Shown here piece after piece: positions 6,940-29,180 of a stretch of DNA of 31,332 bases. Made by a program: the position numbers and the translations under genes. Source of the stretch: Planctomycetota bacterium (GTDB lineage: Bacteria; Planctomycetota; UBA11346); assembly GCA_024641365.1 (NCBI GenBank), contig JAHEDF010000001.1:10317-41648 (forward strand). Reading direction: 5' to 3'. How positions within the stretch are numbered: position 1 is the stretch's first letter; each line of letters starts with the position of its first letter. Under the pieces are notes generated by a model. It was not told the DNA's origin and searched no databases. It was given only the letters and a program-made list of their open reading frames with translations.

Positions 6940-6957
6940 TTCCATAACGAAGACAGC

Positions 6958-7401: not shown

Positions 7402-7408
7402 AAAATCC

Positions 7409-7861: not shown

Positions 7862-8039
7862 GTCCCGATTAGTGACACGTCACCGCAATCAGGCAACTAC
7901 TCTCAATAAAATTTGGCCAGCGCTGCATCGCACAGTATTCGCGCGGTGCAATTCATTGCTTAACAAAATAAAACACGGGAAATAACCTAATTATACTCCT
8001 CTATTGGATAAGTTCTATTTATTGTTAGCCTTTCCTCAT

Positions 8040-9623
8040 ATGACAAACAATGTGCAGAACAAATCACCCAATAAAGAACATATTAAAGTACGCGTTGCAA
8101 AACCGGAAGACGCCGCTGGCATTGCTGCTGTCGCAAAAGCCGCTTATGCTTCTTGGTCTTCTGTCGCTAATGAACGTAATTACTCGTTTCAAATAGCAGC
8201 ATATCCGAATGGGCAATTCGTTGCTGTCGCTGGCAAAGAAATTATTGGCTACGCCACGAGTTTGATTGTGCAATTAGATGATGACAGCCCGTGGTATAAT
8301 CACTCTGAGATATCTGGAAATGGCTCATTTAGCACCCACGATCCAGCCGGTGAAACGTTATATGGTGCGGATATTGCCGTTCATCCCGATTGGCAAGGAA
8401 AGGGCGTTTCCCAATTATTATATCAAGCCCGTCGTACTTTAATGAAACGGAATAATTTAAAACAAATGGTTGCCGGTGGCCGCATACCTGGTTTCGCTGC
8501 AGTCCGTGGTCAATTATCGGCACAAGAATATGTCGACAAAGTCAAATCTGGGGAATTAAAAGACACCGCATTAAATGCGCATTTAAGAGCCGGATATGAA
8601 GTTAAAAGTGTTCACTATGGTTATTTAAATGATCAAGAAAGTCTTGGCTATGCCACGCATTTAGTGATGAGCAATCCTAATTACCAACCGCGCAAACGTT
8701 TAATCGCTGGCGCGCCAGTTCGCCGTACTGCACGACATGTGCGCGTATGCGCAACGCAATATGATCAACGCCGTATTAGTACATTTGAAGACTTCGCCGA
8801 ACAAATTGAATACTTCGCCAATACCGCCGCGTGTTACGATAGCCATATTTTATTATTCCCAGAATTTGTCACGTCACAATTATTTACCACCTTTACCCGT
8901 GGCATCCCACTATTAGAGGCCGTTGATAAATTAGCGGAATTAGCTCCGCGTATTGACACCTTATTTAAAGAAACAGCACAACGTCATCACATCTATTTAG
9001 TCGGCGGCACCACGCCCGTTCGCACTGAAAAAGGCATGCGTAATATTGCGCACCTGTATTCACCTAGTGGCAATGTTTACACCCAAGAAAAATTGCATAT
9101 TACCCCATCTGAAAGAGATCACTGGGGCATTTTACCTGGTGAAGGCATTAAAGTCTTTGAAACGTCTATTGGACGACTTGCGATTGTGATTTGTTACGAC
9201 ATGGAATTTCCTGAATTAGCACGCATTTTAGTTGAGCATGGGGTGGATATTATTTTAAATCCATTTGCCACCGACGAACGCAAGAGCTATTTGCGTGTCC
9301 GTTACTGCGCTCAAGCACGTGCGGTTGAAAATATGGTCTATGTTGTGATGTCTGGGAATGTTGGTGGATTATCGCGCAGCCCATCTATGTTTCTTAATTT
9401 CGGCCAGGCAGCTATTTGTACCCCAAGCGATTTCGCCTTTCCTATGAATGGCATTGCCGCAGAAGGCATCGTAAATACACAAACTGTAGTAATTGCCGAT
9501 CTCGATTTAGGAGCATTAGACATTCAACGACAATCCGCCTCTGTCCGTCCGCTACTCGACCGCCGGCATGACCTTTATGAATTACATACCAAAGTACCTG
9601 TTGAACATCTGACTGTTAACTAA
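8040..9623 (+). CDS. GNAT acetyltransferase fused to carbon-nitrogen hydrolase (nitrilase superfamily)
   Basis: This 527-residue protein has two catalytic domains. Residues about 15-210 form a GNAT acetyltransferase with the acetyl-CoA region 'DIAVHPDWQGKGVSQLLY' (111-128). Residues about 232-520 form a nitrilase-superfamily amidohydrolase with the Glu-Lys-Cys triad: E275 in 'LLFPEFVT', K351 in 'YTQEKLHITPSERDHW', and C385 in 'LAIVICYDMEFPEL'. Such bifunctional fusions are known as a family; their physiological substrates are not settled, and acetylation and hydrolysis of linked amides is an inference. A TTG at 8004 extends the frame, but ATG 8040 is preferred because the upstream residues are not GNAT-like; no clear Shine-Dalgarno precedes either. 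Confidence 0.88.
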   Translation: MTNNVQNKSPNKEHIKVRVAKPEDAAGIAAVAKAAYASWSSVANERNYSFQIAAYPNGQFVAVAGKEIIGYATSLIVQLDDDSPWYNHSEISGNGSFSTHDPAGETLYGADIAVHPDWQGKGVSQLLYQARRTLMKRNNLKQMVAGGRIPGFAAVRGQLSAQEYVDKVKSGELKDTALNAHLRAGYEVKSVHYGYLNDQESLGYATHLVMSNPNYQPRKRLIAGAPVRRTARHVRVCATQYDQRRISTFEDFAEQIEYFANTAACYDSHILLFPEFVTSQLFTTFTRGIPLLEAVDKLAELAPRIDTLFKETAQRHHIYLVGGTTPVRTEKGMRNIAHLYSPSGNVYTQEKLHITPSERDHWGILPGEGIKVFETSIGRLAIVICYDMEFPELARILVEHGVDIILNPFATDERKSYLRVRYCAQARAVENMVYVVMSGNVGGLSRSPSMFLNFGQAAICTPSDFAFPMNGIAAEGIVNTQTVVIADLDLGALDIQRQSASVRPLLDRRHDLYELHTKVPVEHLTVN

Positions 9624-10714: not shown

Positions 10715-13700
10715 ATGAAAACAATTACTCCGTTTGTGCTGATCGCCATGTGCGCACTTGCCTGCCATGGCGCTGAAAAATTGTCCTACAATCGCGACGT
10801 GCGTCCGATTTTATCTGATACGTGCTTTAAATGCCACGGCCCAGATAAGTCCAACGTCAAAGGCAAGCTCCGTCTCGATATCGGTGAATTGGCACTCAAA
10901 AAAGAAGCCTTTATTCCTGGGAAGCCACAAGAAAGCGAATTAATTAAACGTATTCGCACCAAGGATGAAGACGACGTCATGCCACCGCCTGATGCGCCTC
11001 GCCAATTATCCGAGGCACAAAAGAAAATATTAGAGCAATGGATAGCAGAAGGTGCTCAGTACGAACCACACTGGGCCTACATCCCTCCGGTTAAAACCCC
11101 TGTTCCACAAGTCAGTGATAAAAAATGGGGCGCACAACCAATTGATGCATTTATCTTACAAAAATTAGACGATAAAAAAATCACGCCCTCACCAATCGCA
11201 GATCGTGCAACACTGCTACGTCGTATTACCTTGGATTTAATTGGATTGCCACCAACTGAAAAAGAATTAGCTGATTTTTTAGCTGACAAATCTGAACTAG
11301 CTTATGAAAAAGTTGTCGACCGTTTAATGGCGTCCCCTCATTTTGGCGAACGCATGGCGGTTCCGTGGTTGGATGCGGTACGTTTCTCTGACACAGTTGG
11401 CTTTCATGGTGACCAAAACCAAAATAATTTTCCGTATCGCGATTGGGTTATTAATGCCATTAACACCAATATGCCATTTGATCGCTTCACGGCAGAACAA
11501 CTCGCTGGTGATTTATTACCAGACGCAACAACCAGTTCGAAAGTCGCCTCTGGATTTAATCGCTTAAATATGATGACCCGCGAAGGCGGCGCACAACCTG
11601 ATGAGTACATGGCAAAATATGCAGCCGATCGAGTTCGTACACTCGGTGGAGCATGGCTTGGATCGACTTTAGCCTGCTGTGAATGCCATGACCATAAATA
11701 TGATCCGTGGAGCACAAAAGACTTCTATCAATTCGCTTCGTTTTTTGCCGACATTCGCCAATGGGGTGTCTATGCTGATTACGGTTATACCAGAAATCCA
11801 GACCTCAAAGGATTTAATAACGATTATCCATTTCCACCAGAAATTGAAGTTGATAGTCCCTATTTAATTAATCGAATTGATCGCTTACGTAAACAAGGTG
11901 AAGCGCTTGCTGGTACGGCAATTAAAAAGGACGACGCCGGTTTTGCTGAATGGCGCAAATCAGTGGCAGCTTTTACTGCATCACATCCAGATGGATGGGC
12001 CGCGGTTAAACCAACAGCTCCGGCTGCGAAAGCACCGTATTCATTAGGCAAAAATGGCACCTTAAACATTACGGCAAAGCGTGACAGCAATGTCATCTTA
12101 CCGCTCAGCGTTGAGGCTGGGTGGATTGCTGCCATTCGTATTACTTTAGCACAAGAAAACAAAGGTTCTGCGCTTTTATCTGATAAAGGAAAAGGTAATC
12201 CAAATGTCAGTATTAAACTACAACATTTAGCTAAAGGTGAAAAAAAATCAGCTACGATTGGTTATCGCATAGGTGATGCGAGCGATAAAGTGGAGCGCTA
12301 CCGTAGTGGCTCTAGTATATTAGGAATTAGTGGTGGTTGGAACTTTAGCGATGAAATTGCTAAAACTCCCGCAACTGCAATTTTTATTCTTGATCGCCCA
12401 ATTAACATTGGGGCAGAAGATAGCGTTGAGTTAGTCTTAGAAAAAAATGATCTCTACAGCTTCCATATCGCTGTTTCCCCATTTGTTCCTACTGATTTGA
12501 AAAAGGGAACGATTAATGCTGATTTTGTAAACTCCCTGAAAAACTCCTCGGCACCAAAATCCGATGCGCTCGTTTATGCATATGCGCTTGGTACTGCGGT
12601 GAATAGCGACCTCTACAATCAATTAACAGCAATTGATAAAACAATTGAAGCGTGCCGTAATGGAAAAGCCATGACAACGGTGGCCGAAGCATGGCAACCA
12701 AAGGAGGTACGCGTATTACCCCGTGGCAATTGGCAAGATACCAGCGGTGAAGTAGTGTCACCGGAAGCGCCTGAATTTTTAAATGATTTTCCGACCAAAA
12801 AATCTGCACGTCGTACACGATTAGATTTAGCCACCTGGTTAACTTCAGCTGATAATCCACTAACAGCACGTGTATTTGTGAATCGTTTATGGGCTCAGTT
12901 AATGGGCGTTGGCTTATGCGCTACAGTCGATGACTTTGGCTTGCAGGGAGAATGGCCGTCACATCCTGAATTACTTGATTGGTTAGCCGTTGATTTCCGT
13001 GAGCATAAGTGGGATGTGAAGCGCATGGTAAAACAAATTGTTATGAGTAATACCTATTGCCAATCTGCCGTTCAACGTACTGACATCCTTGCACATGATC
13101 CAGCAAATCGCTTACGTGCCATGCAATCACCTCGTCGCTTAGATGCAGAATTTATTCGTGACAATGCGTTATTTATCAGCGGTTTATTAACGAGTTATAT
13201 TGGTGGCCCCAGTGTAAAACCATATCAGCCCCCTGGCTATTATGCGAATCTACAATTTCCAAATCGTGATTATGTCAGCGACACTGATGATGAACAATAT
13301 CGCCGTGGCTTGTACATGCATTGGCAACGTACCTTTTTACATCCCATGCTTGCCAATTTCGACGCACCTTCACGTGATGAATGTGCTGTCTTTCGCACCC
13401 AAGCTAACAGCCCACAACAAGCACTGACATTATTAAATGACCCAACCTTTGTGGAAGCCGCTCGTGCATGGGCGGCCAAAATTGTCGACACAAAAGGAAC
13501 TGACGAACAGCGCATTCGTAACGCATTTAAAGTAGCGCTCTGCCGTTCACCGTCTGCTGAGGAATTACAGCCCTTGTTAAAATTCTTGGCCAAACAACGC
13601 CAACATTTTTCTATGCAAAAAGAAGCCGCTGATGCGCTGCTCAGAACTGGGCTCGCTCCACTGCCTCCAGAAGATAAGCGCGTAGAAGTAGCGGCATGGG

Positions 13701-13753
13701 CTCAGCTGTGCCGTGTCATTTTAAATTTACACGAAACCATTACCCGTCTTTAA
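10715..13753 (+). CDS. PSCyt1-DUF1549-DUF1553 cytochrome c-type protein
   Basis: This 1012-residue protein has a Sec signal (MKTITPFVLIAMCALACHGA) and three domains typical of Planctomycetes and relatives. PSCyt1 (about 25-105) carries the haem-binding 'CFKCH' at residues 37-41 and the 'DDVMPPPD' motif. DUF1549/PSCyt2 (about 140-345) carries 'AVPWLDAVRFSDTVGFHGD' and a second CxxCH, 'CCECHDHKYDP', at 321-331. DUF1553/PSD1 (about 695-990) carries 'RTRLDLATWL', 'NPLTARVFVNRLWAQLMG', 'SPRRLDAEFIRDNAL' and 'ALTLLNDPTFVEAARAWA'. The middle part (about 420-640) is a beta-rich insert. The biochemical role of the family is unproven; an extracytoplasmic redox or catabolic role is inferred. The DUF1501 partner follows after 42 bases, the usual arrangement. 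Confidence 0.93.
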   Translation: MKTITPFVLIAMCALACHGAEKLSYNRDVRPILSDTCFKCHGPDKSNVKGKLRLDIGELALKKEAFIPGKPQESELIKRIRTKDEDDVMPPPDAPRQLSEAQKKILEQWIAEGAQYEPHWAYIPPVKTPVPQVSDKKWGAQPIDAFILQKLDDKKITPSPIADRATLLRRITLDLIGLPPTEKELADFLADKSELAYEKVVDRLMASPHFGERMAVPWLDAVRFSDTVGFHGDQNQNNFPYRDWVINAINTNMPFDRFTAEQLAGDLLPDATTSSKVASGFNRLNMMTREGGAQPDEYMAKYAADRVRTLGGAWLGSTLACCECHDHKYDPWSTKDFYQFASFFADIRQWGVYADYGYTRNPDLKGFNNDYPFPPEIEVDSPYLINRIDRLRKQGEALAGTAIKKDDAGFAEWRKSVAAFTASHPDGWAAVKPTAPAAKAPYSLGKNGTLNITAKRDSNVILPLSVEAGWIAAIRITLAQENKGSALLSDKGKGNPNVSIKLQHLAKGEKKSATIGYRIGDASDKVERYRSGSSILGISGGWNFSDEIAKTPATAIFILDRPINIGAEDSVELVLEKNDLYSFHIAVSPFVPTDLKKGTINADFVNSLKNSSAPKSDALVYAYALGTAVNSDLYNQLTAIDKTIEACRNGKAMTTVAEAWQPKEVRVLPRGNWQDTSGEVVSPEAPEFLNDFPTKKSARRTRLDLATWLTSADNPLTARVFVNRLWAQLMGVGLCATVDDFGLQGEWPSHPELLDWLAVDFREHKWDVKRMVKQIVMSNTYCQSAVQRTDILAHDPANRLRAMQSPRRLDAEFIRDNALFISGLLTSYIGGPSVKPYQPPGYYANLQFPNRDYVSDTDDEQYRRGLYMHWQRTFLHPMLANFDAPSRDECAVFRTQANSPQQALTLLNDPTFVEAARAWAAKIVDTKGTDEQRIRNAFKVALCRSPSAEELQPLLKFLAKQRQHFSMQKEAADALLRTGLAPLPPEDKRVEVAAWAQLCRVILNLHETITRL

Positions 13754-13759
13754 TAGCTA

Positions 13760-13781
13760 AGCGACAGTCCTAGCGACAGTC
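13760..13781. repeat. 10-bp direct repeat before the DUF1501 gene
   Basis: agcgacagtc occurs at 13760-13769 and again at 13772-13781, ending just before the Shine-Dalgarno of the DUF1501 gene. It is probably a small local duplication in the spacer. Confidence 0.6.
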
Positions 13782-13795
13782 ATGTGGAGTTTGTT

Positions 13796-15208
13796 ATGAA
13801 TAAAAATATAAACTATTTACAGCGCCGCGCTTTCTTAGCGCAATCGATGTATGGCCTTGGCGGCATTGCTTTGGCGTCGTTATTACCCGGCACTGCTCAG
13901 GCCGATGAACGGTGGCGTGGCATTATCACAAAACCACATACACCTGTTAAAGCGAAACGGATTATTCATTTATGCATGGCTGGTGGGCCATCGCATTTAG
14001 AAACGTTTGATTTTAAACCACAATTAAAAGCCTTAAATGGCAAGCCGTTTCCAGAGTCATTTACCAAAGGGCAACAATTAGCACAGTTACAAAATGCTGA
14101 ATTAAAGGCTCGTGGACCATTTACTGAGTTTAAAAAATATGGTAAATCGGGACAGGAAATCTCGACACTATTTCCTCATTTGGGCTCAGTCGCTGACGAA
14201 TTGTGCATTATACGTTCCATGCACACCGAACAAATTAATCACGACACAGCGCATGCGTTCATGAATACGGGATCAATTGTAAAAGGTCGCCCCAGCTTTG
14301 GCTCCTGGATGTTATATGGTTTAGGTGCTGAAACTGAAAATCTTCCCGGTTTTGTGGTCATGACCTCACAAGGAAAAGGCGGTGGTGCACAACCCGTTTC
14401 TGCTCGCCAATGGTCAGCAGGATTTTTACCAAGTCGTTTCCAAGGTATTCAATTTCAATCGAAGGGTGACGCCGTTCATTATGTTGCAAATCCAGATGGC
14501 ATTGACGCGCCTTCGCAGCGCGGTGTCATTGATGAAGTCAATCGCATGAATGGATTGCTGGCCGAACAATTACACGATCCAGAAATTCACACCCGCATTA
14601 GCCAGTATGAAATGGCTTTTCGCATGCAGTCATCAGTGCCTGAATTAACTGATTTCAGTAAAGAATCAAAAGCCATGCTGGACCGCTATGGCATAACCAA
14701 ACCTGGCGATGGCAGTTTTGCCAGTAATTGTTTATTAGCCCGGCGCATGGCAGAACGCGGCGTTCGATTTATTCAACTTTATCATCGCGCCTTTGATCAC
14801 CATGGTGGCATTGAAAAAGAATTACCAAAAGCAGCAGCGGAAACAGATCAAGCAAGTGCGGCATTAATTATGGATTTAAAAGAACGCGGCTTATTAGATG
14901 ACACATTAATTTTATGGGGCGGAGAATTTGGACGCACACCCATGGGCCAAGGCAGTGGACGCGACCATCATATTCTCGGTTTCTCTGTCGCCTTAGCTGG
15001 TGGCGGCATTAAAGGTGGCACATCCTACGGCGGCACAGATGAACTCGGCTATAAAGCCGTCGATAAACCAGTCAGCGTTCATGATCTACATGCGACTATG
15101 CAACACCTATGTGGTATTGATCACCTCAAATTGACCTACCGCACCCAAGGACGCGACTTCCGCTTAACCGACGTATTCGGTGAAGTGGTACATGATATTT
15201 TAGCGTAA
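13796..15208 (+). CDS. DUF1501 family exported protein (sulfatase-like fold)
   Basis: This 470-residue protein belongs to the DUF1501 family (PF07394). The N-terminus 'QRRAFLAQSMYGLGGIAL' has twin arginines followed by a hydrophobic stretch ending near TAQA, consistent with Tat-type export. Family features are 'RIIHLCMAGGPSHLETFDFKP', 'LCIIRSMHTEQINHDTAHAF', 'SWMLYGLGAETENLPGFVVM', 'GVRFIQLYHRAFDHHGG', 'LWGGEFGRTPMGQGSGRDHH' and 'VHDLHATMQHLCGID'. The role is unknown; the family almost always sits beside a PSCyt1/DUF1549/DUF1553 gene, as here, and the two are inferred to act together outside the cytoplasm. A GTG at 13784 extends the frame, but ATG 13796 is chosen because GGAG stands seven bases before it and the Tat signal starts there. 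Confidence 0.93.
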   Translation: MNKNINYLQRRAFLAQSMYGLGGIALASLLPGTAQADERWRGIITKPHTPVKAKRIIHLCMAGGPSHLETFDFKPQLKALNGKPFPESFTKGQQLAQLQNAELKARGPFTEFKKYGKSGQEISTLFPHLGSVADELCIIRSMHTEQINHDTAHAFMNTGSIVKGRPSFGSWMLYGLGAETENLPGFVVMTSQGKGGGAQPVSARQWSAGFLPSRFQGIQFQSKGDAVHYVANPDGIDAPSQRGVIDEVNRMNGLLAEQLHDPEIHTRISQYEMAFRMQSSVPELTDFSKESKAMLDRYGITKPGDGSFASNCLLARRMAERGVRFIQLYHRAFDHHGGIEKELPKAAAETDQASAALIMDLKERGLLDDTLILWGGEFGRTPMGQGSGRDHHILGFSVALAGGGIKGGTSYGGTDELGYKAVDKPVSVHDLHATMQHLCGIDHLKLTYRTQGRDFRLTDVFGEVVHDILA

Positions 15209-19091: not shown

Positions 19092-22000
19092 TTACTCGCG
19101 AATGGTAAAGCGAATCTCAGTCGTATGGAAGACTTTATCTCGCTTATTATCTGTAAAGTATTCAACTTTAAGATGGTAATCTCCAGGCACTGGTTGCCAC
19201 TGTTTCATGTTTGGTCCATTATTACCTAAGGTAAACGGGCGGTAAAATTCATCCCCTGTTTCTTGCAGTGAACATTTCGGTAAATAAAATCGTAAATTAT
19301 TTACTTCATTCGGTGCCGCAAAACTAAAATTGATCACTTTGCTTGGCAACGCTGATAAAATAATGGTATCACCATCTTGTAACGACTCTAACCCTTCTAT
19401 AATTCCTCCGCTTTTTGCTTCATGAACTGATATGGCAAACTTACTGTTCTTAGCTTTATCTTCTTTTGTTTCTATTTTAATATTGTCTTTTATAATTTCT
19501 ATGCCCATTAATTGTGCATTTTTAAATTTAGGCGGAACGCGCAGTCGCATTTCTCCATCATTTACAGCTACTGGAAACGGTCCAAGTCGCTGCCATTCTC
19601 CTTCTTTTAAGCTTTTCATATTTAATGCTGTCTTGCGACCTTCAATTAAAAGCTCGAAAGACATGGGATCATTTGCATTTGTTTCTATGGTCCAAACATA
19701 CAGATAATAAGCGCCATTTGCTATGCGTACACCAATATCGATACCATTATCATCGGCCACAATGCCTCGACTCAACATGGTTCGTGTACCCATATCTACT
19801 GCTGGCTTCGGCATGATTGGTTTTGAACCCACCGTGCCAGCACGTAAAATTAAATCAGCCGCTGGTCGAGTTAATCGCGCATCTCCCCAATCCGCTACAT
19901 CGGATAGGTTAAAGCTTCCGCTATCAGTTACTATTAATTTTAATTCTCTCGCTCCCCGCACATCAATATCAATATCCTTTCCTTTATCATTTGCCCCCAT
20001 ATTCCCACTGTTAAACGCAAGTTTGTCATCCACATAGACTTCAATGGTTATGCTGCCGGTTTTATTCACCAACGCATTGACTCCAACCATTGCTTGAAAC
20101 TTTTCAAACTGACCACCGAGTGGATAAATAAGTTCAGCAGGAGCATGCGTACCAATGCCTTTTTTAAACGCTTCATTTCCAATTCTTAACTTATTACTTC
20201 CCAAGCCCTGCATATCACCATTTGATTTATCGAGTATAAGCGGGCCATATCCATTTTTTGCATACTTCCACTGCAGGTCTGATAACCACACTGTTTCTGA
20301 TTCTGTCTTTGCTTTCTTCTCTAATTCAACTTGTCCGATCCATTTTACGTCATTAATTGTCGTTGATGAGCCACCAAGATTGATCGCCTGCACAACTGTA
20401 ACATCAGTGCTATGTGGTATTGGCGGAAGTGCGATTTTCTTTTCTACGGGCATTAAGTATTCAGGGTTAGGAATGCAGTGATATCCGGGTATCGGTATTT
20501 CATAATGGCCATTTGGTAATTGCCAGGCAACCTCGACGTGATCATCGCCATCAGTTTCTTTCAACCATACTTCAAAATAATACCACTTTGTTTGTTGTAA
20601 TTCGATAATAGATGAAACCTGACTCTTTTGATGACCCCAATCATAAACCTTCACTCCAGATGCTTGATTGTCCAAGTACGCAATGCGTACTTTTTCTCCG
20701 TCCTCGTTTTGTAACCACATTTCACAATTATCATCACCCGCAATCATAAACTTATAACCACCCGAAATGGGTGGCACAATATAACCAGACAAACGTTGGA
20801 TATAATTATCACCATGCCGTGCCGTTGCGATTGAATTAACTGTAGTTTTTAGGTGTGGCATTTTACGCAACAAATTACTGACCTGCTCATAATCAAGGGG
20901 GTCATCTTGTTTATCGCGCCACACTTCTCGTGTTACGTGGCCACTTCCATATGAATTGCCAATATCTAATTGCACTGGTAAAGATTCGTAAACACCGCCT
21001 GTTTTATCGGTTGTCCGCAATATAATTTGTACACTGCCTGAGCGATCTGGTGTCCAATTAATATTATATGGTGCGATTCTTTGTGCGCCTACTACATCCC
21101 CGCCAATTACATAATCAATTCTTTCAATGTGAGTTGAATCTCCCTCCAACATTGATTCAATATACATTTCTTTACCAACATAAGTATAAATTTTATATGG
21201 ATCGCCTCGTATATAAACTGGCTGCGGCATCAATGCCCCCGTCGCATTTAATCCGTCAAGTTGTAAGCCAGAAACCACCAGGGGCGCTTGCAAGGAAAGC
21301 GTTATTTTTTTCTCTTTAACCGATGCTGGCACTGGCCCTAATCGATAAATGTTGTTACCAAGATGTACTGGATTGACAGTAATTTTTTCATCGCCAACAA
21401 TTAATGGAACCGGCATTAATTCCGATTTGCTGCTTGCCCACAATGTCATTTCTATATCACCATTCGGAGCAATTTGCGAAAATACCACCCCTTCCTTTGC
21501 GTTAATTCCCGTATGGCAAATGGCTCCAATGTCAGATGTATCCGTCTTATAGGCATCGTTTTTTACAAATTGAGTAACGGAGGTCACAAATCCTGCATGC
21601 ATAGCTTTCCGTTGACTTAACCATAATTTACCATCGATGTTTTTTTCATTGCCGCCTAAATTAATCCCTCGCATAAAAATTGGTTTCTGAACAACAACAG
21701 GCGTGTCGCCTTGGCGAGATCTGCCACGGCGGCCTGGTAAAATTGTTACTTCACCGGTCCCATTGGATTTTGCAAACAATGCCTGTCCTTTTTCTACCTG
21801 AACCTCAGTCCGGCCATATTTAATAGACACGTTAGCCTGAGCACCTTGTAATTGTACGATACCCTGAGGCGTTACCACTTTGACACCATCACTCGACATA
21901 CCGCGGCGATCAGTAACGACCAGTGAACCACGGTCTAATAGAATATTACACACTTTATCAACTATTTTATAAGACGCTATTTTACCTTCTTCGCCTAATT

Positions 22001-23102
22001 CTAAGCGAACATTGTTTGTTGTTTCTATAATTAATGAAGACGTGGTTTGCGTTTCAAAACTATCGCCATCATAAACATGATCTCCGCGTCGTGGCGTAAG
22101 ATTTTCGCTACCTCGTGCTAAGGACACCGTGCCTGAAACGGTAGCAATTTGAGATACGCTTTCTGTTGTTGATTTGCTTCCAGCGCTTGGCGCTGCCGTG
22201 CTGGTATTGAGTAAAACGACACCGAGTACAATTCCGATTCCGATAGTACCCAATATCATCAGCAAAGGTGCTGGCGATCCTTTTTTCTCTTTATGTGTTG
22301 CCAAGGTCGAAATTTGCGCCTGCGTGTAGGTATGGCGTACGGGTGTGCGGCCCGATGAAATACGCGACGTCTCTACGTTTTGTCGGTTGACCGCTGGCAT
22401 GCGAGTGCTGCTTTTTTTAGTCGGCGACAGTTCTACATACATCGCGGTTAATAATAAATGCAAACGAACTTGCCGCTCAAATCGCGACAATGAATCTAAA
22501 TTACGCGTCAGACTTGACGTTAATAATGCCAATGAGTCCGGATCAATTTTATTTAACACGTATTCACTTATTAACGTCGGAATTAATAATTCATTTGGAT
22601 TTACAGCCCATTCATCGCCATCTGAATACCAGTCGACTACTGACCGCACATGGCATAAATGGCCAGGAATTTCTTTCTCATTTATCCCTAATTCGCCAGC
22701 TAAGCCAGCAAATTCATAATGATCTCGATAATAGCACTCAATTATTTTTTTTAATTGATCGTCTATTCGTGTTATTTTTTGCAGCACTTTATCAGCACAG
22801 GTATTATTATAATTGTCTAGAGAGCGTAATTCTTGACTGGCATGTTGAACAACAACATGGGTAAGGGTGTCTTGGCTCTGAATGGCATGTTGTGCCGCCT
22901 GCTGTAAGTGTTCTGTAATTAAAGGTACGGCAACTGAAATATAATCATGCTCGGTAGGTGTTTCGCCGTCACATTCAGAAAAAACTGCTTGTTGAATTGC
23001 AAGCACAGCATCCCAGCTCTCCAAGTAGGTTGCTAAAAATAATAGCAGCCCGCGATGGGGATCGCGTCTCGGTGAGGATACGCTGAAGGCGTTAGTGCTC
23101 AT
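19092..23102 (-). CDS. Giant membrane protein: sigma-like N-terminus, FecR, PA14 and NPCBM domains
   Basis: This 1336-residue protein has no N-terminal signal peptide. Residues about 14-160 resemble an ECF sigma factor in degraded form: 'GLLLFLATYLESWDAVLAIQ' (region 2 like) and 'LKKIIECYYRDHYEFAGLAG' with the following helix (region 4 like helix-turn-helix). Residues about 172-225 ('LLIPTLISEYVLN...') resemble the N-terminus of FecR-type anti-sigma proteins. A single transmembrane helix lies near 278-301, then a FecR domain (about 320-465), a malectin-like segment starting 'FMRGINLGG' (473), an Ig-like region (about 640-710), PA14 (about 714-877, 'SGGYKFMIAGDDNCEMWL'), NPCBM (about 900-1077) and C-terminal beta domains. 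Inferred topology: N-terminus in the cytoplasm, sugar-binding domains outside. A TTG at 23123 was rejected in favour of ATG 23102, preceded by AAGGA. Confidence 0.8.
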   Translation of the reverse strand: MSTNAFSVSSPRRDPHRGLLLFLATYLESWDAVLAIQQAVFSECDGETPTEHDYISVAVPLITEHLQQAAQHAIQSQDTLTHVVVQHASQELRSLDNYNNTCADKVLQKITRIDDQLKKIIECYYRDHYEFAGLAGELGINEKEIPGHLCHVRSVVDWYSDGDEWAVNPNELLIPTLISEYVLNKIDPDSLALLTSSLTRNLDSLSRFERQVRLHLLLTAMYVELSPTKKSSTRMPAVNRQNVETSRISSGRTPVRHTYTQAQISTLATHKEKKGSPAPLLMILGTIGIGIVLGVVLLNTSTAAPSAGSKSTTESVSQIATVSGTVSLARGSENLTPRRGDHVYDGDSFETQTTSSLIIETTNNVRLELGEEGKIASYKIVDKVCNILLDRGSLVVTDRRGMSSDGVKVVTPQGIVQLQGAQANVSIKYGRTEVQVEKGQALFAKSNGTGEVTILPGRRGRSRQGDTPVVVQKPIFMRGINLGGNEKNIDGKLWLSQRKAMHAGFVTSVTQFVKNDAYKTDTSDIGAICHTGINAKEGVVFSQIAPNGDIEMTLWASSKSELMPVPLIVGDEKITVNPVHLGNNIYRLGPVPASVKEKKITLSLQAPLVVSGLQLDGLNATGALMPQPVYIRGDPYKIYTYVGKEMYIESMLEGDSTHIERIDYVIGGDVVGAQRIAPYNINWTPDRSGSVQIILRTTDKTGGVYESLPVQLDIGNSYGSGHVTREVWRDKQDDPLDYEQVSNLLRKMPHLKTTVNSIATARHGDNYIQRLSGYIVPPISGGYKFMIAGDDNCEMWLQNEDGEKVRIAYLDNQASGVKVYDWGHQKSQVSSIIELQQTKWYYFEVWLKETDGDDHVEVAWQLPNGHYEIPIPGYHCIPNPEYLMPVEKKIALPPIPHSTDVTVVQAINLGGSSTTINDVKWIGQVELEKKAKTESETVWLSDLQWKYAKNGYGPLILDKSNGDMQGLGSNKLRIGNEAFKKGIGTHAPAELIYPLGGQFEKFQAMVGVNALVNKTGSITIEVYVDDKLAFNSGNMGANDKGKDIDIDVRGARELKLIVTDSGSFNLSDVADWGDARLTRPAADLILRAGTVGSKPIMPKPAVDMGTRTMLSRGIVADDNGIDIGVRIANGAYYLYVWTIETNANDPMSFELLIEGRKTALNMKSLKEGEWQRLGPFPVAVNDGEMRLRVPPKFKNAQLMGIEIIKDNIKIETKEDKAKNSKFAISVHEAKSGGIIEGLESLQDGDTIILSALPSKVINFSFAAPNEVNNLRFYLPKCSLQETGDEFYRPFTLGNNGPNMKQWQPVPGDYHLKVEYFTDNKRDKVFHTTEIRFTIRE

Positions 23103-23142
23103 ATGAGCAACATCCTTGTCCAACTACGTGACGTGATAGAAT

Positions 23143-23159
23143 GACGTAAAAGTTACGTC
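23143..23159 (-). promoter_or_regulatory. Inverted repeat upstream of the 19092-23102 gene
   Basis: gacgtaa, a 3-base spacer and ttacgtc form a perfect 7-bp inverted repeat 41 bases upstream of the chosen start. Further acgtg/acgt half-sites follow at 23126-23135. It could be an operator or a leader hairpin; no matching sequence precedes the paralogous gene. Confidence 0.4.
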
Positions 23160-23237
23160 CCCTCTCAAAGAGCGGCACTGTTAACGTACCCTATAGAACG
23201 CTTATTCTCAACGCTACACGATTGCGATCTTCAACGT

Positions 23238-24170
23238 TTAGGAACGGGTGCGCGGATCACACCACACCAACCCTAAGTCGGCGAGTAAATTAAACCCAAC
23301 TAGCAGCACAGCATAGATAAGCGCTGCTCCACTCACGACTGTCCAATCTTGTTGTAAAGCCCCTGCCACAAAGAAATAACCAAGACCAGGGATAGCAAAT
23401 AAGCTCTCCACGACCATGGAACCGGTCAAAACACCAGCGGCAGCAGTCGCTAAATAGGCCAGTACAGGCCCAAACGCCGGACGCAGCGCATGATCGACTA
23501 CAATGGCAGATTCTCCAGCGCCTTTTGCTCGCGCAGTGCGGATAAAATCTGCGCCCAGTTCATCTACCATGCTTGCCCTGGTCAGTCGAGCGATTTGCGA
23601 TGCTAATGGAATACTGAGAGTTAAAATTGGCAAAATTAGTGCAGACATATGATCGATGCCACCTGCAGGTAGCCATCCCAACCACAAACTAAAAACCACT
23701 AACAATAATGGAGCTACAATAAAATCTGGCGTGCTAATACCAAGGGTGGTGGTGGTACGCACAACATCATCTTGCCAGCGTTGGCTAAAACGTGCGGCTA
23801 CCATGCCACCCCATAAACCTAAAAATATACCGACTAATAATGCGCCGCATCCTATTGTTAATGAAACCGGGGCAGCACGCGCTAATAATGACAGTACATC
23901 ATGCCCACGTGCTATTTTTAAACTAGCACCGAAGTCACCGCTTAATTTATTAGTGAGGTCTTGTGTATATTGAGTAAATAAGCTTACTTTATCTGACTGT
24001 CCGTATATTTCTTTCAGGCGCTCAACCGCAGCCGCTGGCAAGGTTCGGTCACCAGCGATATCAGCCCATGGATCGCCCGGCATTAAACGTAGCGCAATAA
24101 ACGTTAATAAGTGCACTAATATTATGACCGCAATCCCAGCTCCTAAACGTTTTACAATAATATTTAACAT
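23238..24170 (-). CDS. ABC transporter permease, DppB/OppB (peptide/nickel) type
   Basis: This 310-residue inner-membrane protein has the classic DppB layout: N-terminal helix 'MLNIIVKRLGAGIAVIILVH', then 'RLMPGDPWADIAG' (family: F.LxxLxPGDP), 'GDFGASLKI', and the EAA loop contacting the ATPase, 'GADFIRTARAKGAGESAIVV', ending with 'VVESLFAIPGLGYFFVAGAL'. It would import peptides, nickel or similar substrates with a DppC partner, a binding protein and ATPases, none of which is adjacent. The reading frame extends to 24257, but ATG 24170 is chosen because the helix starts there and GGGGA stands seven bases upstream. The neighbour on each side is unrelated, so it is an orphan in this window. Confidence 0.88.
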   Translation of the reverse strand: MLNIIVKRLGAGIAVIILVHLLTFIALRLMPGDPWADIAGDRTLPAAAVERLKEIYGQSDKVSLFTQYTQDLTNKLSGDFGASLKIARGHDVLSLLARAAPVSLTIGCGALLVGIFLGLWGGMVAARFSQRWQDDVVRTTTTLGISTPDFIVAPLLLVVFSLWLGWLPAGGIDHMSALILPILTLSIPLASQIARLTRASMVDELGADFIRTARAKGAGESAIVVDHALRPAFGPVLAYLATAAAGVLTGSMVVESLFAIPGLGYFFVAGALQQDWTVVSGAALIYAVLLVGFNLLADLGLVWCDPRTRS

Positions 24171-24303
24171 ACGTCCCCAACGCATGCACGGGGAATCAGG
24201 ATAATATAGAAAAAGTGGGGATAAATCACAGTTGTCTGAGCACCATGCCATGCGCACTTGTAAAAACTAGTGCCTCCATATTCAGTTGAAAAGTCACTGT
24301 ATT

Positions 24304-24771
24304 TCACAACATATCCCACTGCGAAAAAAGCGCCGCTTGTCCGATTAATTGCGCCTGATCATCATGTATATTCCACAAAATCACATCACGTATGCGAAAG
24401 CGTTTACCCGTACGACTTATGCGTACACCGTGATAATCATCAATATACCCATCACGTGCTGCACGAGCCAACAGCTGATCACGTGCACATTGCTCATCGG
24501 GTTCTGCGCTTAAACGTGATGGCATACCAATAAAAGCATCCGCATCCATGTCCCACAATTGTAGTGCTCGACGATTCGCGAACCAAAATAACGGGTCAGG
24601 CTCAGTACCATGCGAAACAATTACACACGGTGCTTCGTACAAGGCTTGTGCACGCGCAAGCGGTTCCACTGGTAAATCGTCAATAATTGGTCGTTTTAAC
24701 CACCGTGAAAAACTGGTCGCTAAAAAACCACACCGACGCATATCGGACTCTGAAAGCGATAAATGAGCCAT
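24304..24771 (-). CDS. MEKHLA domain protein (PAS-like)
   Basis: This protein of about 155 residues matches the MEKHLA domain, a PAS-like fold found stand-alone in bacteria and at the end of plant HD-ZIP III proteins. Characteristic stretches are 'RAQALYEAPCVIVSHGTEPD', 'PLFWFANRRALQLWDMD', 'FIGMPSRLSAEPDEQCARDQ', 'GYIDDYHGVRISRTGKRFRI' and 'GQAALFSQW'. A sensory or ligand-binding role is inferred from the fold; the ligand is unknown. The frame is open to 24906, and that extension includes a hydrophobic run (LLLSGFIVTAITYLGFVQFL), so a longer membrane-anchored form starting at 24906 cannot be ruled out. ATG 24771 is preferred because family members normally begin shortly before the domain. 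Confidence 0.78.
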   Translation of the reverse strand: MAHLSLSESDMRRCGFLATSFSRWLKRPIIDDLPVEPLARAQALYEAPCVIVSHGTEPDPLFWFANRRALQLWDMDADAFIGMPSRLSAEPDEQCARDQLLARAARDGYIDDYHGVRISRTGKRFRIRDVILWNIHDDQAQLIGQAALFSQWDML

Positions 24772-24957
24772 TGGGGCGCATCGTGGTAAGAACTGGACAA
24801 AGCCCAAGTAGGTGATTGCGGTGACTATGAAGCCGCTCAACAAGAGTTCCGGACTCGCGTATCCGATTATCTCCGTTAGAGTTTTACCCGACGGTAACAT
24901 GGCCATCCTTGGCCGCAGTTTCCGCTGTTAAAACCATTAGTCTCCCGTGGAAAGCCC

Positions 24958-25896
24958 ATGCTGAAACGCTTCATTTTCCTCCTTTTCTTACTGTCCGTGT
25001 CGATCGTTTCGTTGGACGCTGCCGAGAATAAACCGTCCCTGCTCGCCTTATTTGGGCGCATGCACATGGTGATTGTACATTTTCCAGTCGCATTGTTAAT
25101 TGTCCTCGGCGTCATTGAAGTATTTCGCTGGCGCAGCCGCACTGGCTCGGTCGATAAGACCATTGTTATAATTTCCATTTTCACCGCGCTCAGTTCACTA
25201 TTAGCGGTTGCGCAAGGATGGGTTTTAGCTGAACGCAGCGAACAATCCGACCTGTTAGAATTGCATCGCTGGTTAGGCATTTCGACGGCTACTGTCGCAA
25301 TTATTGTAGCGATAATTGCTATTCTTCGGCAATTTGGCGATTCTGCTGCGCTGGGAAAATGTTATCGCTACACGGTAATACCTGGAGCATTATTAGTGAG
25401 TTTAACTGGGCATTATGGTGGTGCAGCCATGCATGGGAAAGATTATTTACCAATAATGCCGTGGGAATTATATGATTATTTCTTTGGTAAGGAGGAAATT
25501 GTAACCGCTGATCCAAATCAAATTCCTGACGTCATTGATTTTAAAAAGCATATAGATCCTATATTTGTGAAGAATTGTTATGAATGTCACGATGATAAAA
25601 AACAAAAAGGTGAATTGCGCATGGATTCGCGTGAGTGGTTAGTCAAAGGAGGAGATGGAGGCACATCGATAGTGCCAGGAAAAGGTAAAGCGAGTTTGCT
25701 CTATAAGCGTTTATTTGAGACCGAAGATGATGAACGCATGCCCAAAAAGAAACCCGCTCTGTCTGCGTTGCAAATTGCGCTGATCGAAAAATGGATCGAC
25801 CAAGGCGCTATTTGGCCAGCAGATGTCCCTGCCGGCAAAGCTAATCCTGATGCAACGGCAGCCCCGGCTCACGGGGATACCCAGGACGTAAAATAG
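24958..25896 (+). CDS. DUF2231 membrane protein with C-terminal PSCyt1-type haem domain
   Basis: This 312-residue protein has an N-terminal signal-like helix, then a DUF2231 membrane domain with 'GRMHMVIVHFPVALLIVLGV' (33-52) and three more helices near 69-90, 105-123 and 139-155, closing with 'GHYGGAAMHGKDYLP'. The C-terminal part is a PSCyt1-type cytochrome c domain with haem motif CYECH at 207-211, 'KGELRMDSREWLVKGGDGG' and 'DDERMPKKKPALSALQIALI'. By inference it is a membrane-anchored c-type cytochrome carrying electrons at the outer face of the inner membrane. Such DUF2231-cytochrome fusions are common in Planctomycetes and Verrucomicrobia. ATG 24958 is preceded by GGAAAG. It is divergent from the MEKHLA gene. 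Confidence 0.88.
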   Translation: MLKRFIFLLFLLSVSIVSLDAAENKPSLLALFGRMHMVIVHFPVALLIVLGVIEVFRWRSRTGSVDKTIVIISIFTALSSLLAVAQGWVLAERSEQSDLLELHRWLGISTATVAIIVAIIAILRQFGDSAALGKCYRYTVIPGALLVSLTGHYGGAAMHGKDYLPIMPWELYDYFFGKEEIVTADPNQIPDVIDFKKHIDPIFVKNCYECHDDKKQKGELRMDSREWLVKGGDGGTSIVPGKGKASLLYKRLFETEDDERMPKKKPALSALQIALIEKWIDQGAIWPADVPAGKANPDATAAPAHGDTQDVK

Positions 25897-25970
25897 ACAC
25901 ACGGCTTGACGTTAACGTGTTTGAATAGCGTAACATGGTGGTAAGTGCTCTACGACGTAGTTGCCGATCC

Positions 25971-26127
25971 AGCAGGCTGCTGAAAAACACCAACCTGCTC
26001 GGTTTTAATAAATTGCGGGGCGACGTGCAGTCGCGATTTTCCCGCAATTTATTTAAACAGACTCTTAACCTAAGAGGGCCAGACGGCCCCCTTCAACCCC
26101 CGCAGGCTACTTTTTAAGCAGCCTGCT
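25971..26127. mobile_element. MITE-like element with 17-bp terminal inverted repeats
   Basis: The ends agcaggctgctgaaaaa (25971-25987) and tttttaagcagcctgct (26111-26127) are inverted copies matching at 16 of 17 bases, framing 157 bp with no coding capacity. Inside are a perfect 13-bp stem (26007-26019 with 26041-26053, 21-base loop), a ctctta/taagag hairpin (26062-26076) and a gggcc/ggccc pair (26076-26089). GCAGGCTGCTGAAAAA-type ends resemble those of some insertion sequences and their miniature derivatives. No obvious target-site duplication flanks it. Confidence 0.7.
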
Positions 26128-26255
26128 AGCTTGCAGTTACACGCTAACACGCCAAATGCTTTAACGCTCACTATCCAACAATTTGCATTGGCAGTGACCC
26201 ACTCTTTATGCTAACTTAAAGGGTAGTCGGTGCACAACTGCATATGAGCGATGCG

Positions 26256-26277
26256 TGCTAATAACCACTTATTAGCA
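26256..26277 (+). promoter_or_regulatory. 9-bp inverted repeat upstream of the second giant gene
   Basis: tgctaataa, a 4-base spacer (ccac) and ttattagca form a perfect inverted repeat ending 47 bases before the chosen start at 26325. Its placement mirrors that of the repeat before the paralogous gene at 23143-23159, though the sequences differ. A dimeric regulator site is one reading. Confidence 0.45.
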
Positions 26278-26324
26278 TGTGCTCTACGCTTATCGGTCAC
26301 CTCTCGTTTGGCCTTGGATCTCTC

Positions 26325-29180
26325 ATGTCCGCTCCTGAATTTTCACAACTCGTTACCAATGCCAAAGGCGGTCAACCAGAAGCCGTCACCAAGTTTATTT
26401 TAGCTATCGCTCGCGATTTACGTGCATTTATCGGAACGTTTGCGGCCTCACCAAAAATGCTAGAAGAAGTGCATGCCAACACCTGGATGCAAGTACGCCG
26501 CGAAATAAATACCTGTCCACCTTCATCGCAAGTGGTTACCTGGATTCGCCAACGCGCTATGGTGGTTTTAAAATATCACCTAGAAAATGAACGTAACCAA
26601 GCCATATCAGCAAAAGATGGACTGCGACATTTAATAGCACAAGACGGGTTAGAAAGTTTACAGGCGCTCTTATCACCAACCAATGATGGCGCGACACACA
26701 TCCATTCTCAATATCCACAACTTGATGAAACAGCACAATTTCTCATTCATCGTCGCTACAATGAAAAAGCGTCGCTTGACGAATTAGCAAGCGATATGCA
26801 ATTAAAAGGACCTGCTGAAATAGCCATTAAATTATTTGTTGCGCGTGCAACGCTGCATTGGCGCTCTTCAAAAGAAGATAAAAAATCGCCTGATGATCGT
26901 TTGTTGCCAATTGCCATAGAACAACATATGGCAGGCACCATTGCAAACGAAGCGCGTCAGGAATTATCGCAGAGTTTATTGAAAGATTTATCTCGAGCTG
27001 CTAGTTTTACACGTCAAATGCGTGTCGATATTTTACTGCGAGCTATATTTGGTGACTATAGTGAAAAAGATGCACTCGCGCTAGCCGCTAACATGGGGAA
27101 AATTGAAAATAAGCGGCGCAACGAGAGTAGCCTCTTACACGTTGCGCCGCCTGCTCGCACACCAATTGGTAGTGGTAGTGAAATTTACCGTGCGCAAGAA
27201 CGCATTGCGAATCGTCAAAACAGCTCATCAAGTTCTATTCGCACTGGATCAGGACCACGCCCACATGCATCTCGGCGACGCAGTAAAACGGGCAGTGACG
27301 AGCGACAGACGGATTTATATCAACGGCGTAGCGGACGCCGTAAAATGCCACCGACAGTGCTTATAGCTGGCTGTGTTATTGTAGTCGGTATCATAACATT
27401 ATTTATTGTCTGGAGCGGTGGTGGCTCAAGTGGATCAGCACATAACGCACAGACGACGCACGCTGGAAAAGTTGCTGCCGTTCTCGGGTTTGAACAAGGG
27501 TACACAATCTTAGATGGGCAAAAGGAAATTGCTGGGACACTTGGCGCAGAAATTAAAGCTGGCATGGGTGTGCGAAGTGGAAAAGGCACGACTACCATTG
27601 ATTTAAGTAATATTTCTCGCCTCGTTTTAAATCCACAAACTGAAATACGTTCATTTGATCAAGCCGTAGACGGTACCGGACAAGCGAATATTGATAAAGG
27701 AACCATAAATATTCAGAGCATGGCCTCACCCGGCATAGAAATTCGTACACCACAAGTGCGGGTTAATTTTGGCGTCGCGCGCGGGACGGTTGCCGTAGAT
27801 AGCGATCGCACTGTCGTACAAGCCACCAGCGGCCCAGTAACTGTAACTAATAGAGATGGTACCGGTACGATAACCATTCCTGCCGGGGCATCTGCAACAG
27901 CATTAACCGGTTCAACGCCAAAATTAATTCAGGCACGTGCCTTTGTGCGGGGAATTAATTTCGGTGGTAATAATGTAACTATCGATAGCCAAAAATGGTT
28001 TTCTCATCGTCAGGCTTTAACCGCTGGTATGCATTTAGCTCCTGGCACCGATATCGCGTCAATAGGTGCGCTTAGTGGTGTCGGTTTGGATTTTGATAAA
28101 AAATCCATGCTTGATACTGGGTTATATGGCAATCGAGCACCTATTGAAATTAACCAAACCATGCCCAATGGCGAATTTGATATTACGTTGTGGATTGGCA
28201 ATACGACACCAACTACGAATCAGGCTTTGTCCGTATTTATTAATGATAAAAAAATTGACCTAACTGACCTCTATTTACCACGCAGCGGCTGGGCTCAATT
28301 AGGGCCTATTACCACGCAAATAGCTAATAAAAAATTACAACTGCGCGTTGATGGACTTGGAACGAGTCGTTTATCTGGATGTTTATTAGAAGCGCCAAAA
28401 GACGCTGGTATGTTTTTGCCACCGGCAATTGCAATTATAAGCCCTACTGACGCTGCTACTTTTTACACGTCAGAACCTTTTGATATCATTGCGGATGTTG
28501 TTGGCGATGTCACGAAAGTTGCGTTTTACGCAGAAGATAAACTCGTCGGAGAAAGTAAATCAGCCCCCTATCGCACAACCGTCAAAGGATTGGAAATCGG
28601 CGATCATAAATTAACCGCCCATGCCTATTATGGTAAAGATCAAAGATCAATTTCGCTTCCACTTGGTATTTCAATTATAGAAGCTTTTGGATCTGGCTCT
28701 ATAACCTTTCAGATGTGGGATAATTTACGCGGCGTAAAACTGTCAGAAGCGAATGATTCAGAGCGCGTTAAAGGCAAACCGAAGGATACCTTTACCGCCA
28801 ATAAGTTTGAATCGAAAATTAATTGGGGAGAAAATCTATTTGTGAAAGCTCGTGGCTATATTCATCCGCCAATCACCGGTGAATATAAATTTTGGATGAC
28901 CTGCGATGATACTGGCGAACTATGGTTAAGTACCGATGAAAATGCTTCAAACATAAAGAAGATCGCTGGCGTAGACAGAAATACAAATGGTGTCCACGCA
29001 TGGACTACATACAAATTTCAGCAATCCAAACCGATTACATTAATGCAGGGCCAACGCTACTACATCGAATTACGCTACAAAGAAGAAGGGGTAGATGATT
29101 ACGGTGCCGTTGGTTGGCAACTGCCGAATGGAGTTTTAGATCGCCCAATTAATGGGGCACATTTAAGCCCAGCTGAATAA
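26325..29180 (+). CDS. Giant membrane protein: ECF sigma-like N-terminus, FecR, malectin/Ig-like and PA14 domains
   Basis: This 951-residue paralog of the 19092-23102 protein shows the sigma-like part more clearly. Residues about 24-92 follow the ECF region 2 pattern: 'MLEEVHANTWMQVRREI' (family: DAEDLVQETFLRAWR) and 'VVTWIRQRAMVVLKYHLENE' (family: AWLYRIARNLALDYLRRR). Residues about 130-180 follow region 4: 'AQFLIHRRYNEKASLDELAS' then 'EIAIKLFVARATLHW'. Residues 190-242 resemble the start of FecR anti-sigma proteins. A basic linker precedes one transmembrane helix (about 340-364), then FecR (380-525), malectin-like 'FVRGINFGGNNVTID' (539), an Ig-like module (about 700-785, 'TKVAFYAEDKLVGESKSAPY') and PA14 (788-951). 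An ATG at 26277 lies inside an inverted repeat; ATG 26325 is preferred because the truncated copy at 29293 aligns from there. Confidence 0.82.
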   Translation: MSAPEFSQLVTNAKGGQPEAVTKFILAIARDLRAFIGTFAASPKMLEEVHANTWMQVRREINTCPPSSQVVTWIRQRAMVVLKYHLENERNQAISAKDGLRHLIAQDGLESLQALLSPTNDGATHIHSQYPQLDETAQFLIHRRYNEKASLDELASDMQLKGPAEIAIKLFVARATLHWRSSKEDKKSPDDRLLPIAIEQHMAGTIANEARQELSQSLLKDLSRAASFTRQMRVDILLRAIFGDYSEKDALALAANMGKIENKRRNESSLLHVAPPARTPIGSGSEIYRAQERIANRQNSSSSSIRTGSGPRPHASRRRSKTGSDERQTDLYQRRSGRRKMPPTVLIAGCVIVVGIITLFIVWSGGGSSGSAHNAQTTHAGKVAAVLGFEQGYTILDGQKEIAGTLGAEIKAGMGVRSGKGTTTIDLSNISRLVLNPQTEIRSFDQAVDGTGQANIDKGTINIQSMASPGIEIRTPQVRVNFGVARGTVAVDSDRTVVQATSGPVTVTNRDGTGTITIPAGASATALTGSTPKLIQARAFVRGINFGGNNVTIDSQKWFSHRQALTAGMHLAPGTDIASIGALSGVGLDFDKKSMLDTGLYGNRAPIEINQTMPNGEFDITLWIGNTTPTTNQALSVFINDKKIDLTDLYLPRSGWAQLGPITTQIANKKLQLRVDGLGTSRLSGCLLEAPKDAGMFLPPAIAIISPTDAATFYTSEPFDIIADVVGDVTKVAFYAEDKLVGESKSAPYRTTVKGLEIGDHKLTAHAYYGKDQRSISLPLGISIIEAFGSGSITFQMWDNLRGVKLSEANDSERVKGKPKDTFTANKFESKINWGENLFVKARGYIHPPITGEYKFWMTCDDTGELWLSTDENASNIKKIAGVDRNTNGVHAWTTYKFQQSKPITLMQGQRYYIELRYKEEGVDDYGAVGWQLPNGVLDRPINGAHLSPAE

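Follow-up and report, generated by a model that had tools for sequence, protein, structure and literature searches.

Planctomycete membrane proteins that join a divergent sigma-like domain to an anti-sigma segment and extracellular modules

Two fused proteins in the window

The window, by which we mean the whole 31,332-nucleotide stretch that was analysed, carries two large open reading frames at the places originally predicted, encoding the paralogues P0001 and P0002 (Table 1). Each had been read as a single chain of sigma-like, anti-sigma, membrane-spanning and outer parts, and this fusion was confirmed by profile matches, by a tree, by an unfused two-gene counterpart and, for P0002 only, by structure prediction. 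Each of the two proteins has a single clear hydrophobic segment. The predicted outer modules held in part: Pfam recognized PA14, FecR, NPCBM (in P0001) and Big_7 (weak in P0001), whereas Pfam did not detect the expected malectin in either protein; in its place stands a module without a name, marked by an RGINxGG motif.

Table 1. Positions within the window of the two fused genes, their assigned parts and the genes conserved beside P0002
Feature	Position	Strand	Remarks
P0001, 1336 aa, paralogue	19092..23102	-	degraded sigma-like, ASD, TM, FecR, PA14, NPCBM
NPCBM domain of P0001	19869..20294	-	Pfam E 8.8e-42, above cut-off
PA14 domain of P0001	20490..20825	-	Pfam E 3.4e-6, above cut-off
Outer FecR domain of P0001	21780..22058	-	Pfam E 6.4e-6, above cut-off
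Predicted transmembrane (TM) helix of P0001	22203..22265	-	hydrophobic segment from residue 280
Anti-sigma domain (ASD) of P0001	22428..22592	-	ASD profile 68.7 bits; P0001 is among the profile's 19 rows
Degraded sigma-like region of P0001, ~residues 1-160	22623..23102	-	region 2 shortened; placed by profile and tree
MEKHLA-domain gene	24304..24906	-	conserved neighbour of P0002
DUF2231 (weak here) + PSCyt1 membrane cytochrome gene	24958..25896	+	upstream of P0002; conserved neighbour
P0002, 951 aa	26325..29180	+	sigma2-like, sigma4-like, ASD, TM, FecR, RGINxGG module, Big_7, PA14
Sigma2-like domain, P0002 residues 4-95	26334..26609	+	
Sigma2-sigma4 linker, P0002 residues 97-120	26613..26684	+	77% mean identity among 9 P0002-group proteins
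Sigma4-like domain, P0002 residues 117-182	26673..26870	+	
ASD, P0002 residues 190-246	26892..27062	+	homologous to FecR-type N-termini
Juxtamembrane stretch KRRNESSLL...GSGSE, P0002 residues 259-290	27099..27194	+	conserved in relatives
Predicted TM helix of P0002	27351..27416	+	hydropathy 2.95; hydrophobic segment from residue 344
Outer FecR domain of P0002	27582..27839	+	Pfam E 3.2e-4, 21.5 bits, just under the cut-off of 24
Big_7 Ig-like domain of P0002	28422..28619	+	Pfam E 2.3e-9
PA14 domain of P0002	28833..29129	+	Pfam E 4.9e-7

Homologues of P0002 begin at or near the same Met, which supports its start. Residues 21-178 match the NCBIfam model TIGR02989 (Sig-70_gvs1), a sigma family named after Rhodopirellula/Verrucomicrobium, with an E value of 1.7e-7, the score of 31.3 bits lying far below the curated cut-off of 124.55 bits. 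A Pfam scan of P0002 returned no sigma domain and matched Big_7, PA14 and FecR instead, and a PDB sequence search with the sigma part gave chance-level rows only (best 7ycx, 0.71; AlgU, 0.85). The AF2 model of residues 1-300 reached a pLDDT of 86 and a pTM of 0.79 (five models, 59.8-86.0). In agreement with the predicted sigma similarity, a Foldseek search with this model retrieved ECF sigma factors in all of the first 12 rows and ranked them first for both sigma2 and sigma4, with a best E value of 6.3e-3 and none below 1e-3. The model, whose support is limited to P0002, thus indicates that the sigma2 and sigma4 folds are kept. With profile A2, the matches were confined to Ig, fibronectin-like, chitodextrinase, PA14 and flocculin entries. 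A plasmid origin of P0002 was rejected, tblastn against PLSDB having returned two records that both match the PA14 end only.

The basic residues that precede the transmembrane helix of P0002 suggest that its N-terminus lies inside. By eye, a short NESSLL- or DSSRL-like motif recurs between the ASD and the helix in several subfamilies; it could be a docking or protease site.

The sigma reading had been called clearer in P0002 than in P0001, and this agrees with the profile match and fold of the former, as neither Pfam nor NCBIfam scans (TIGR02989 included) gave a sigma match in the latter. Against a profile of 52 stand-alone planctomycete sigma domains P0001 scored 18.6 bits, with an E value of 3.2e-4 when computed against the ORFs of the window and the analysed loci. 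It falls inside the fused clade of the sigma-domain tree, and the AF2 model of its N-terminal part was poor (pLDDT 53). Placed by homology only, P0001 appears to be a more degraded paralogue of P0002.

Distribution and origin of the fused family

We scanned 23 genomes of the order with a profile built on the N-terminal sigma-ASD-TM part (11 rows, 367 positions), and each of them has a match. Four of these genomes have matches that span all or most of the profile, at 17 loci among the matches listed (five in G001, six in G002, five in G005 and one in G006), with one to six fused copies per genome. Two matches in G005 (C250 and C238) extend only to positions 244 and 305 of the profile, and the remaining ones among those listed cover the sigma part only, with ends around position 176 and none beyond 193. 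Long frames with such a sigma-part-only match were seen in other genomes, e.g., one of 974 aa in G019. At an E value of 1e-30, the search for the same architecture that had been proposed with the original prediction found it in 4/23 genomes of the class (the same 23 as for the order) and in 4/392 drawn from the phylum, the phylum run scoring at most five candidates per genome. Three of the fused loci (L001, L047 and L084) are cut off by contig ends.

In the 19 non-redundant fused proteins, the most hydrophobic segment (2.19-3.21) follows the ASD, at residues 280-354. The outer modules vary among the 10 of 17 fused genome loci taken into Pfam scans and include NPCBM, PA14, Big_7, CBM_6, CBM_35, laminin-G-type and FecR domains; Pfam scans of 12 fused proteins gave no receiver domain. 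TIGR02989 matched seven of eight scanned fused N-termini at E values of 5.9e-6 or lower and the eighth (L083) at 0.023, its cut-off being reached by none. The two relatives found among genome contigs belong to Planctomycetota MAGs. A homologue search with a 12-row profile returned 26 rows, of which eight were new (P0023-P0030) and cover 7-18% of the query; they carry Ig, PA14, subtilisin and other domains and were judged from the listing not to be fused.

Two loci stand apart in their layout. L046 (1653-2711) encodes a fused protein that ends 32 residues past the hydrophobic segment and lacks an outer domain, unless the assembly is faulty; an Mfd-like gene (1-1566) adjoins it, as with P0002. 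L037 (841-9703, in G002) holds two tandem fused paralogues of 1505 and 1383 aa that lie near each other in the tree, likely a recent duplication.

When 22 fused and 52 stand-alone sigma domains were placed in one tree, all fused rows fell on one side of a single branch with a support of 100/100 and a length of 1.11. The place of a candidate nearest stand-alone relative has a support of 73/80. A profile of the ASD from 19 fused rows matched, besides the fused proteins, ORFs that directly follow stand-alone sigma genes, at E values of 1e-4 or lower in 6 of the 52 stand-alone loci, with L022 (43.7 bits, E 5.6e-12) and L074 (40.7 bits) scoring highest. L089 and L022 cover one and the same gene region. 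In L089, the sigma gene carries Pfam sigma regions 2 and 4 (TIGR02989 at 107.2 bits, below cut-off), and its TGA stop overlaps the start of the next gene at ATGA. That second gene encodes an anti-sigma match (26.2 bits, cut-off 100), FecR and PA14, with a hydrophobic stretch, seen by eye, between the anti-sigma match and FecR/PA14. The pair therefore shares with the fused proteins the succession of sigma, anti-sigma, hydrophobic segment, FecR and PA14, and differs from them in being two overlapping genes with a stand-alone sigma that retains Gln51 (as aligned for L022; see below). Since the same order of parts is here split over two genes, fusion would be a small step, and we infer that a sigma gene and an anti-sigma gene arranged as in L089 were joined. 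Most simply, an ECF sigma/FecR-type anti-sigma pair would have become one gene once, in a planctomycete lineage.

Residue loss in the sigma-like domain

We aligned 52 stand-alone sigma domains with 38 fused ones and made the counts on 19 non-redundant fused rows. The stand-alone set comprises 30 of 85 TIGR02989 matches and 22 loci resembling the fused profile, with L069 (a 615-aa frame) left out; the fused set comprises 16 of the 17 genome loci (L001, an orthologue of P0002, was left out) together with P0001, P0002 and P0021. Gln51, in region 2.2, we take to be a key contact to core polymerase. According to a review, sigma2 makes its main contact with the polymerase through region 2.2, onto the beta' coiled coil (PMC4598750). 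Gln at column 51 is present in 2/19 fused rows vs 50/52 stand-alone ones, and an acidic residue (Asp/Glu) at column 48 in 6/19 vs 52/52, or in 24 of all 38 fused rows. Basic residues at columns 79, 87 and 89 were counted in 3, 1 and 0 of the 19 fused rows vs 38, 42 and 26 of the 52, and the Arg position of region 4.2 (column 172) is basic in 2/19 vs 49/52. Other positions are partly lost, namely the acidic residue at 52 (7/19 vs 37/52) and the basic residues at 91 (8/19 vs 40/52) and 144 (11/19 vs 38/52). The basic residue at column 174 (Arg174) is kept in 19/19 vs 47/52, and Trp73, Tyr145 and Ala155 are retained in 13, 18 and 18 of the fused rows. The mean net charge falls between the two sets, from +4.7 in stand-alone to +0.7 in fused domains for region 2.3-2.4 and from +2.9 to -0.9 for the helix-turn-helix of region 4.2. 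P0002 itself has Glu48 and lacks Gln51 and the basic residues at 79, 87, 89, 91 and 172; in P0001 and P0021, both with a shortened region 2, a Gln does occupy the aligned column.

Because the stand-alone set had partly been chosen by TIGR02989 score, the count was repeated on the 22 stand-alone domains chosen for their likeness to the fused profile, of which 20 have the Gln and 20 the basic residue at 172. Misalignment was rejected as an explanation for the missing Gln: columns 51 and 73 are 22 apart in 51/52 stand-alone and 31/38 fused rows, and any Gln within columns 47-55 occurs only in L078, L085, P0001 and P0021 among the 19. The long tail itself was likewise not supported as a cause. Seven of eight non-fused loci in the same genomes (G001/G002) whose sigma factors have long C-terminal extensions served as the control (L035, L036, L039, L040, L042, L043 and L044, with L045 left out); all seven keep both Gln51 and the acidic residue at 48, hence the loss of these two residues does not come from a long tail alone. 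Their basic residues are present in 5/7 (column 87), 5/7 (172) and 3/7 (174). The best hydrophobic 19-mer scores at least 1.92 in six of them and 1.57 in L043, so that not all are surely membrane-bound; judged by sequence, the seven may be true tethered sigma factors.

The fused rows also share conserved positions of their own (W54, R58, D98, L112, A167 and W179 across the 19). Among nine P0002-group proteins, mean identity is 65.5% in sigma2, 77% in the linker, 59% in sigma4, 62.5% in the ASD and 73% in the juxtamembrane stretch, compared with 51-62% in the outer domains, the linker being the most conserved of the regions compared. In alignment A1, made of 17 of 19 homologue rows (P0015 and P0020 left out), the outer FecR domain is missing from 7/17 P0002-group rows and the sigma part from none, in a search that was seeded on the first 500 residues of P0002. 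That the sigma part is a decaying passenger without function is consistent with the very degraded state of P0001 and L085 (18.6 and 16.2 bits against the stand-alone sigma profile), but the identities of sigma2, linker and sigma4 (59-77% vs 51-62% outside) and the presence of the sigma part in every row argue against it, and we regard it as highly improbable. As the P0002-group sigma part is conserved about as well as the outer domains, with the linker and juxtamembrane stretch more so, it appears not to be drifting and to be no decaying relic. The original prediction had allowed for a sigma part without its original function; this fits the residue loss better than a working sigma, save that decay does not describe the P0002 group.

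One-piece sigma/anti-sigma arrangements are already known from IutY and ECF52, and sigma mimicry is known from PhyR. We take the anti-sigma part of IutY to be FecR-like and PhyR to have no membrane anchor. IutY of Pseudomonas putida (ECF243) is a one-chain sigma/anti-sigma membrane protein (PMC5411451) that is processed by Prc and RseP to release active sigma (PMC5411451; PMC8999054), and its group number, 243, is shared with FecR (PMC7406223), which supports a FecR-like anti-sigma part. The fused proteins likewise hold an ECF sigma domain, an anti-sigma segment and a membrane passage in a single polypeptide. In contrast, IutY has its sigma released by Prc/RseP and is partnered by an outer-membrane siderophore receptor, whereas the fused proteins lie near TIGR02989, have lost most core- and DNA-binding residues and carry large PA14/NPCBM/Ig outer modules. 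In Streptomyces coelicolor, the ECF52 protein SCO4117 is described as one chain that runs from a sigma through an anti-sigma-like zinc finger and a TM to a carbohydrate-binding domain outside (PMC5826349), an order of parts that the fused proteins share; unlike them, it has a zinc-finger anti-sigma, its sigma is reported active in vivo and the group is described as exclusive to Actinobacteria. The traits of FecR-type anti-sigma factors (N-terminal ASD, TM and outer FecR) are all present in P0001 and P0002, the FecR match of P0002 lying just below cut-off. The predicted departure from the separate genes of FecI-FecR systems is therefore real as an arrangement, but it has precedents in IutY and ECF52.

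The fused proteins had been suggested to be membrane-tethered sigma factors releasable by proteolysis, i.e., working ECF sigma factors cut loose as in IutY and as proposed for SCO4117. The order of parts as in IutY (PMC5411451; PMC8999054), the ECF52 precedent (PMC5826349), both sigma-domain folds retained in the P0002 model, Glu48 of P0002, Arg174 in 19/19 fused rows and the name 'sigma24 family' protein that JGI gives to two relatives would all fit such a role. However, the fused clade has lost most of the region 2.2, 2.4 and 4.2 residues for core polymerase and DNA that stand-alone sigma factors of the same order keep, and the residues of region 2.2 are intact in 7/7 other tailed sigma factors of the same genomes; for this reason we consider a releasable sigma quite unlikely, and the 'sigma24 family' names may mislead on function. 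As a counterpoint, the ASD could, by analogy, make up in cis for the lost contacts, which is conceivable since the N-terminus of E. coli FecR is needed for sigma activity (PMC7406223). New in the present family, as far as the alignment tells, is a fused sigma domain with most of the region-2.2 Gln, the 2.4 basic residues and the 4.2 Arg lost. Within the parts of the literature covered by our search, which had the main planctomycete ECF papers outside its scope, we found no description of either a membrane receptor whose sigma domain is disarmed or the planctomycete fused family.

A putative receptor and the gene neighbourhood

Our preferred reading, held tentatively and at a little short of an even chance, is that the fused proteins are receptors whose pseudo-sigma/anti-sigma module, derived from a fused gene pair, signals by protein contacts to a putative partner. 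The product would be a receptor that spans the membrane once, keeping the sigma-like domain and the ASD within the cell and exposing FecR, Ig, PA14, NPCBM or CBM modules on its surface. We call the sigma-like domain a pseudo-sigma because most of its residues for binding core RNA polymerase and promoter DNA are lost, while the fold would be retained. A ligand, probably a glycan, might bind outside and alter the packing of pseudo-sigma against ASD inside, and the module would then signal by protein contact, with the fusion, the direction of the signal and the partner all putative. No partner, ligand or signal was found for the fused proteins in this computational analysis.

The most likely form of such signalling would be an exchange of partners with some of the cell's many stand-alone sigma/anti-sigma pairs, as PhyR does with NepR. 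PhyR has a sigma2/sigma4-like domain that serves as a protein partner and not as a sigma (PMC4598750). The proposed pseudo-sigma would be similar in offering a sigma-like fold as a protein partner; PhyR is controlled by a receiver domain, whereas the fused proteins would be transmembrane receptors with a built-in ASD. It is tempting to speculate that they form a ligand-gated membrane analogue of PhyR, a sigma/ASD switch that, on glycan binding, exchanges partners with dozens of stand-alone ECF sigma/anti-sigma pairs, with several receptors per genome and varied outer modules, although this specific form seems to us somewhat unlikely. The two planctomycete genomes probed have 30 and 55 TIGR02989 matches, a few being fused proteins; the model also matches, below cut-off, in 8/14 control genomes. 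To our knowledge, few of the routes by which outer signals reach so many sigma factors have been described. If true, the receptor reading would link glycan sensing to sigma regulons by a route open to testing. It would also amount to a novel type of transmembrane receptor, with a former sigma factor as its non-transcribing signalling domain, and to a concrete case of a transcription factor turned sensor domain.

In the window, the MEKHLA gene (minus strand), the DUF2231-PSCyt1 gene (plus) and P0002 (plus) are direct neighbours, a trio that recurs in L001, L002 and L082. The conserved trio points to a possible functional link between the receptor and a planctomycete membrane cytochrome. Such a link would also suit a structural adaptor, in which the pseudo-sigma/ASD part anchors or clusters an outer glycan-binding complex or the DUF2231-PSCyt1 cytochrome complex and passes no transcription signal. 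The pairing with DUF2231-PSCyt1 and MEKHLA at four loci (the window, L001, L002 and L082), a further fused copy in L079 beside PSCyt2/DUF1501-type genes and the strong conservation of the linker and juxtamembrane stretch speak for an adaptor. On the other hand, the available flanks of the remaining fused loci, some of them short, did not show the pairing, and the keeping of a sigma fold together with an ASD would be odd for a mere anchor; we consider the adaptor unlikely, and retain the signalling receptor as the preferred reading.

L002 has the flanking SUKH, ABC permease and Mfd genes in common with the window as well. P0001 is absent from this collinear locus (G002, 6519-8219), where the SUKH and ABC permease genes are adjacent, and the P0001 paralogue has therefore been either gained or lost. 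Elsewhere in the window, a PSCyt1-PSCyt2-PSD1 gene is followed by a DUF1501 gene (10715-15208), and similar genes adjoin the fused gene of L079. Two small cupin-domain proteins are encoded next to each other at 6958-7861; by eye they are likely lipoproteins and paralogues.
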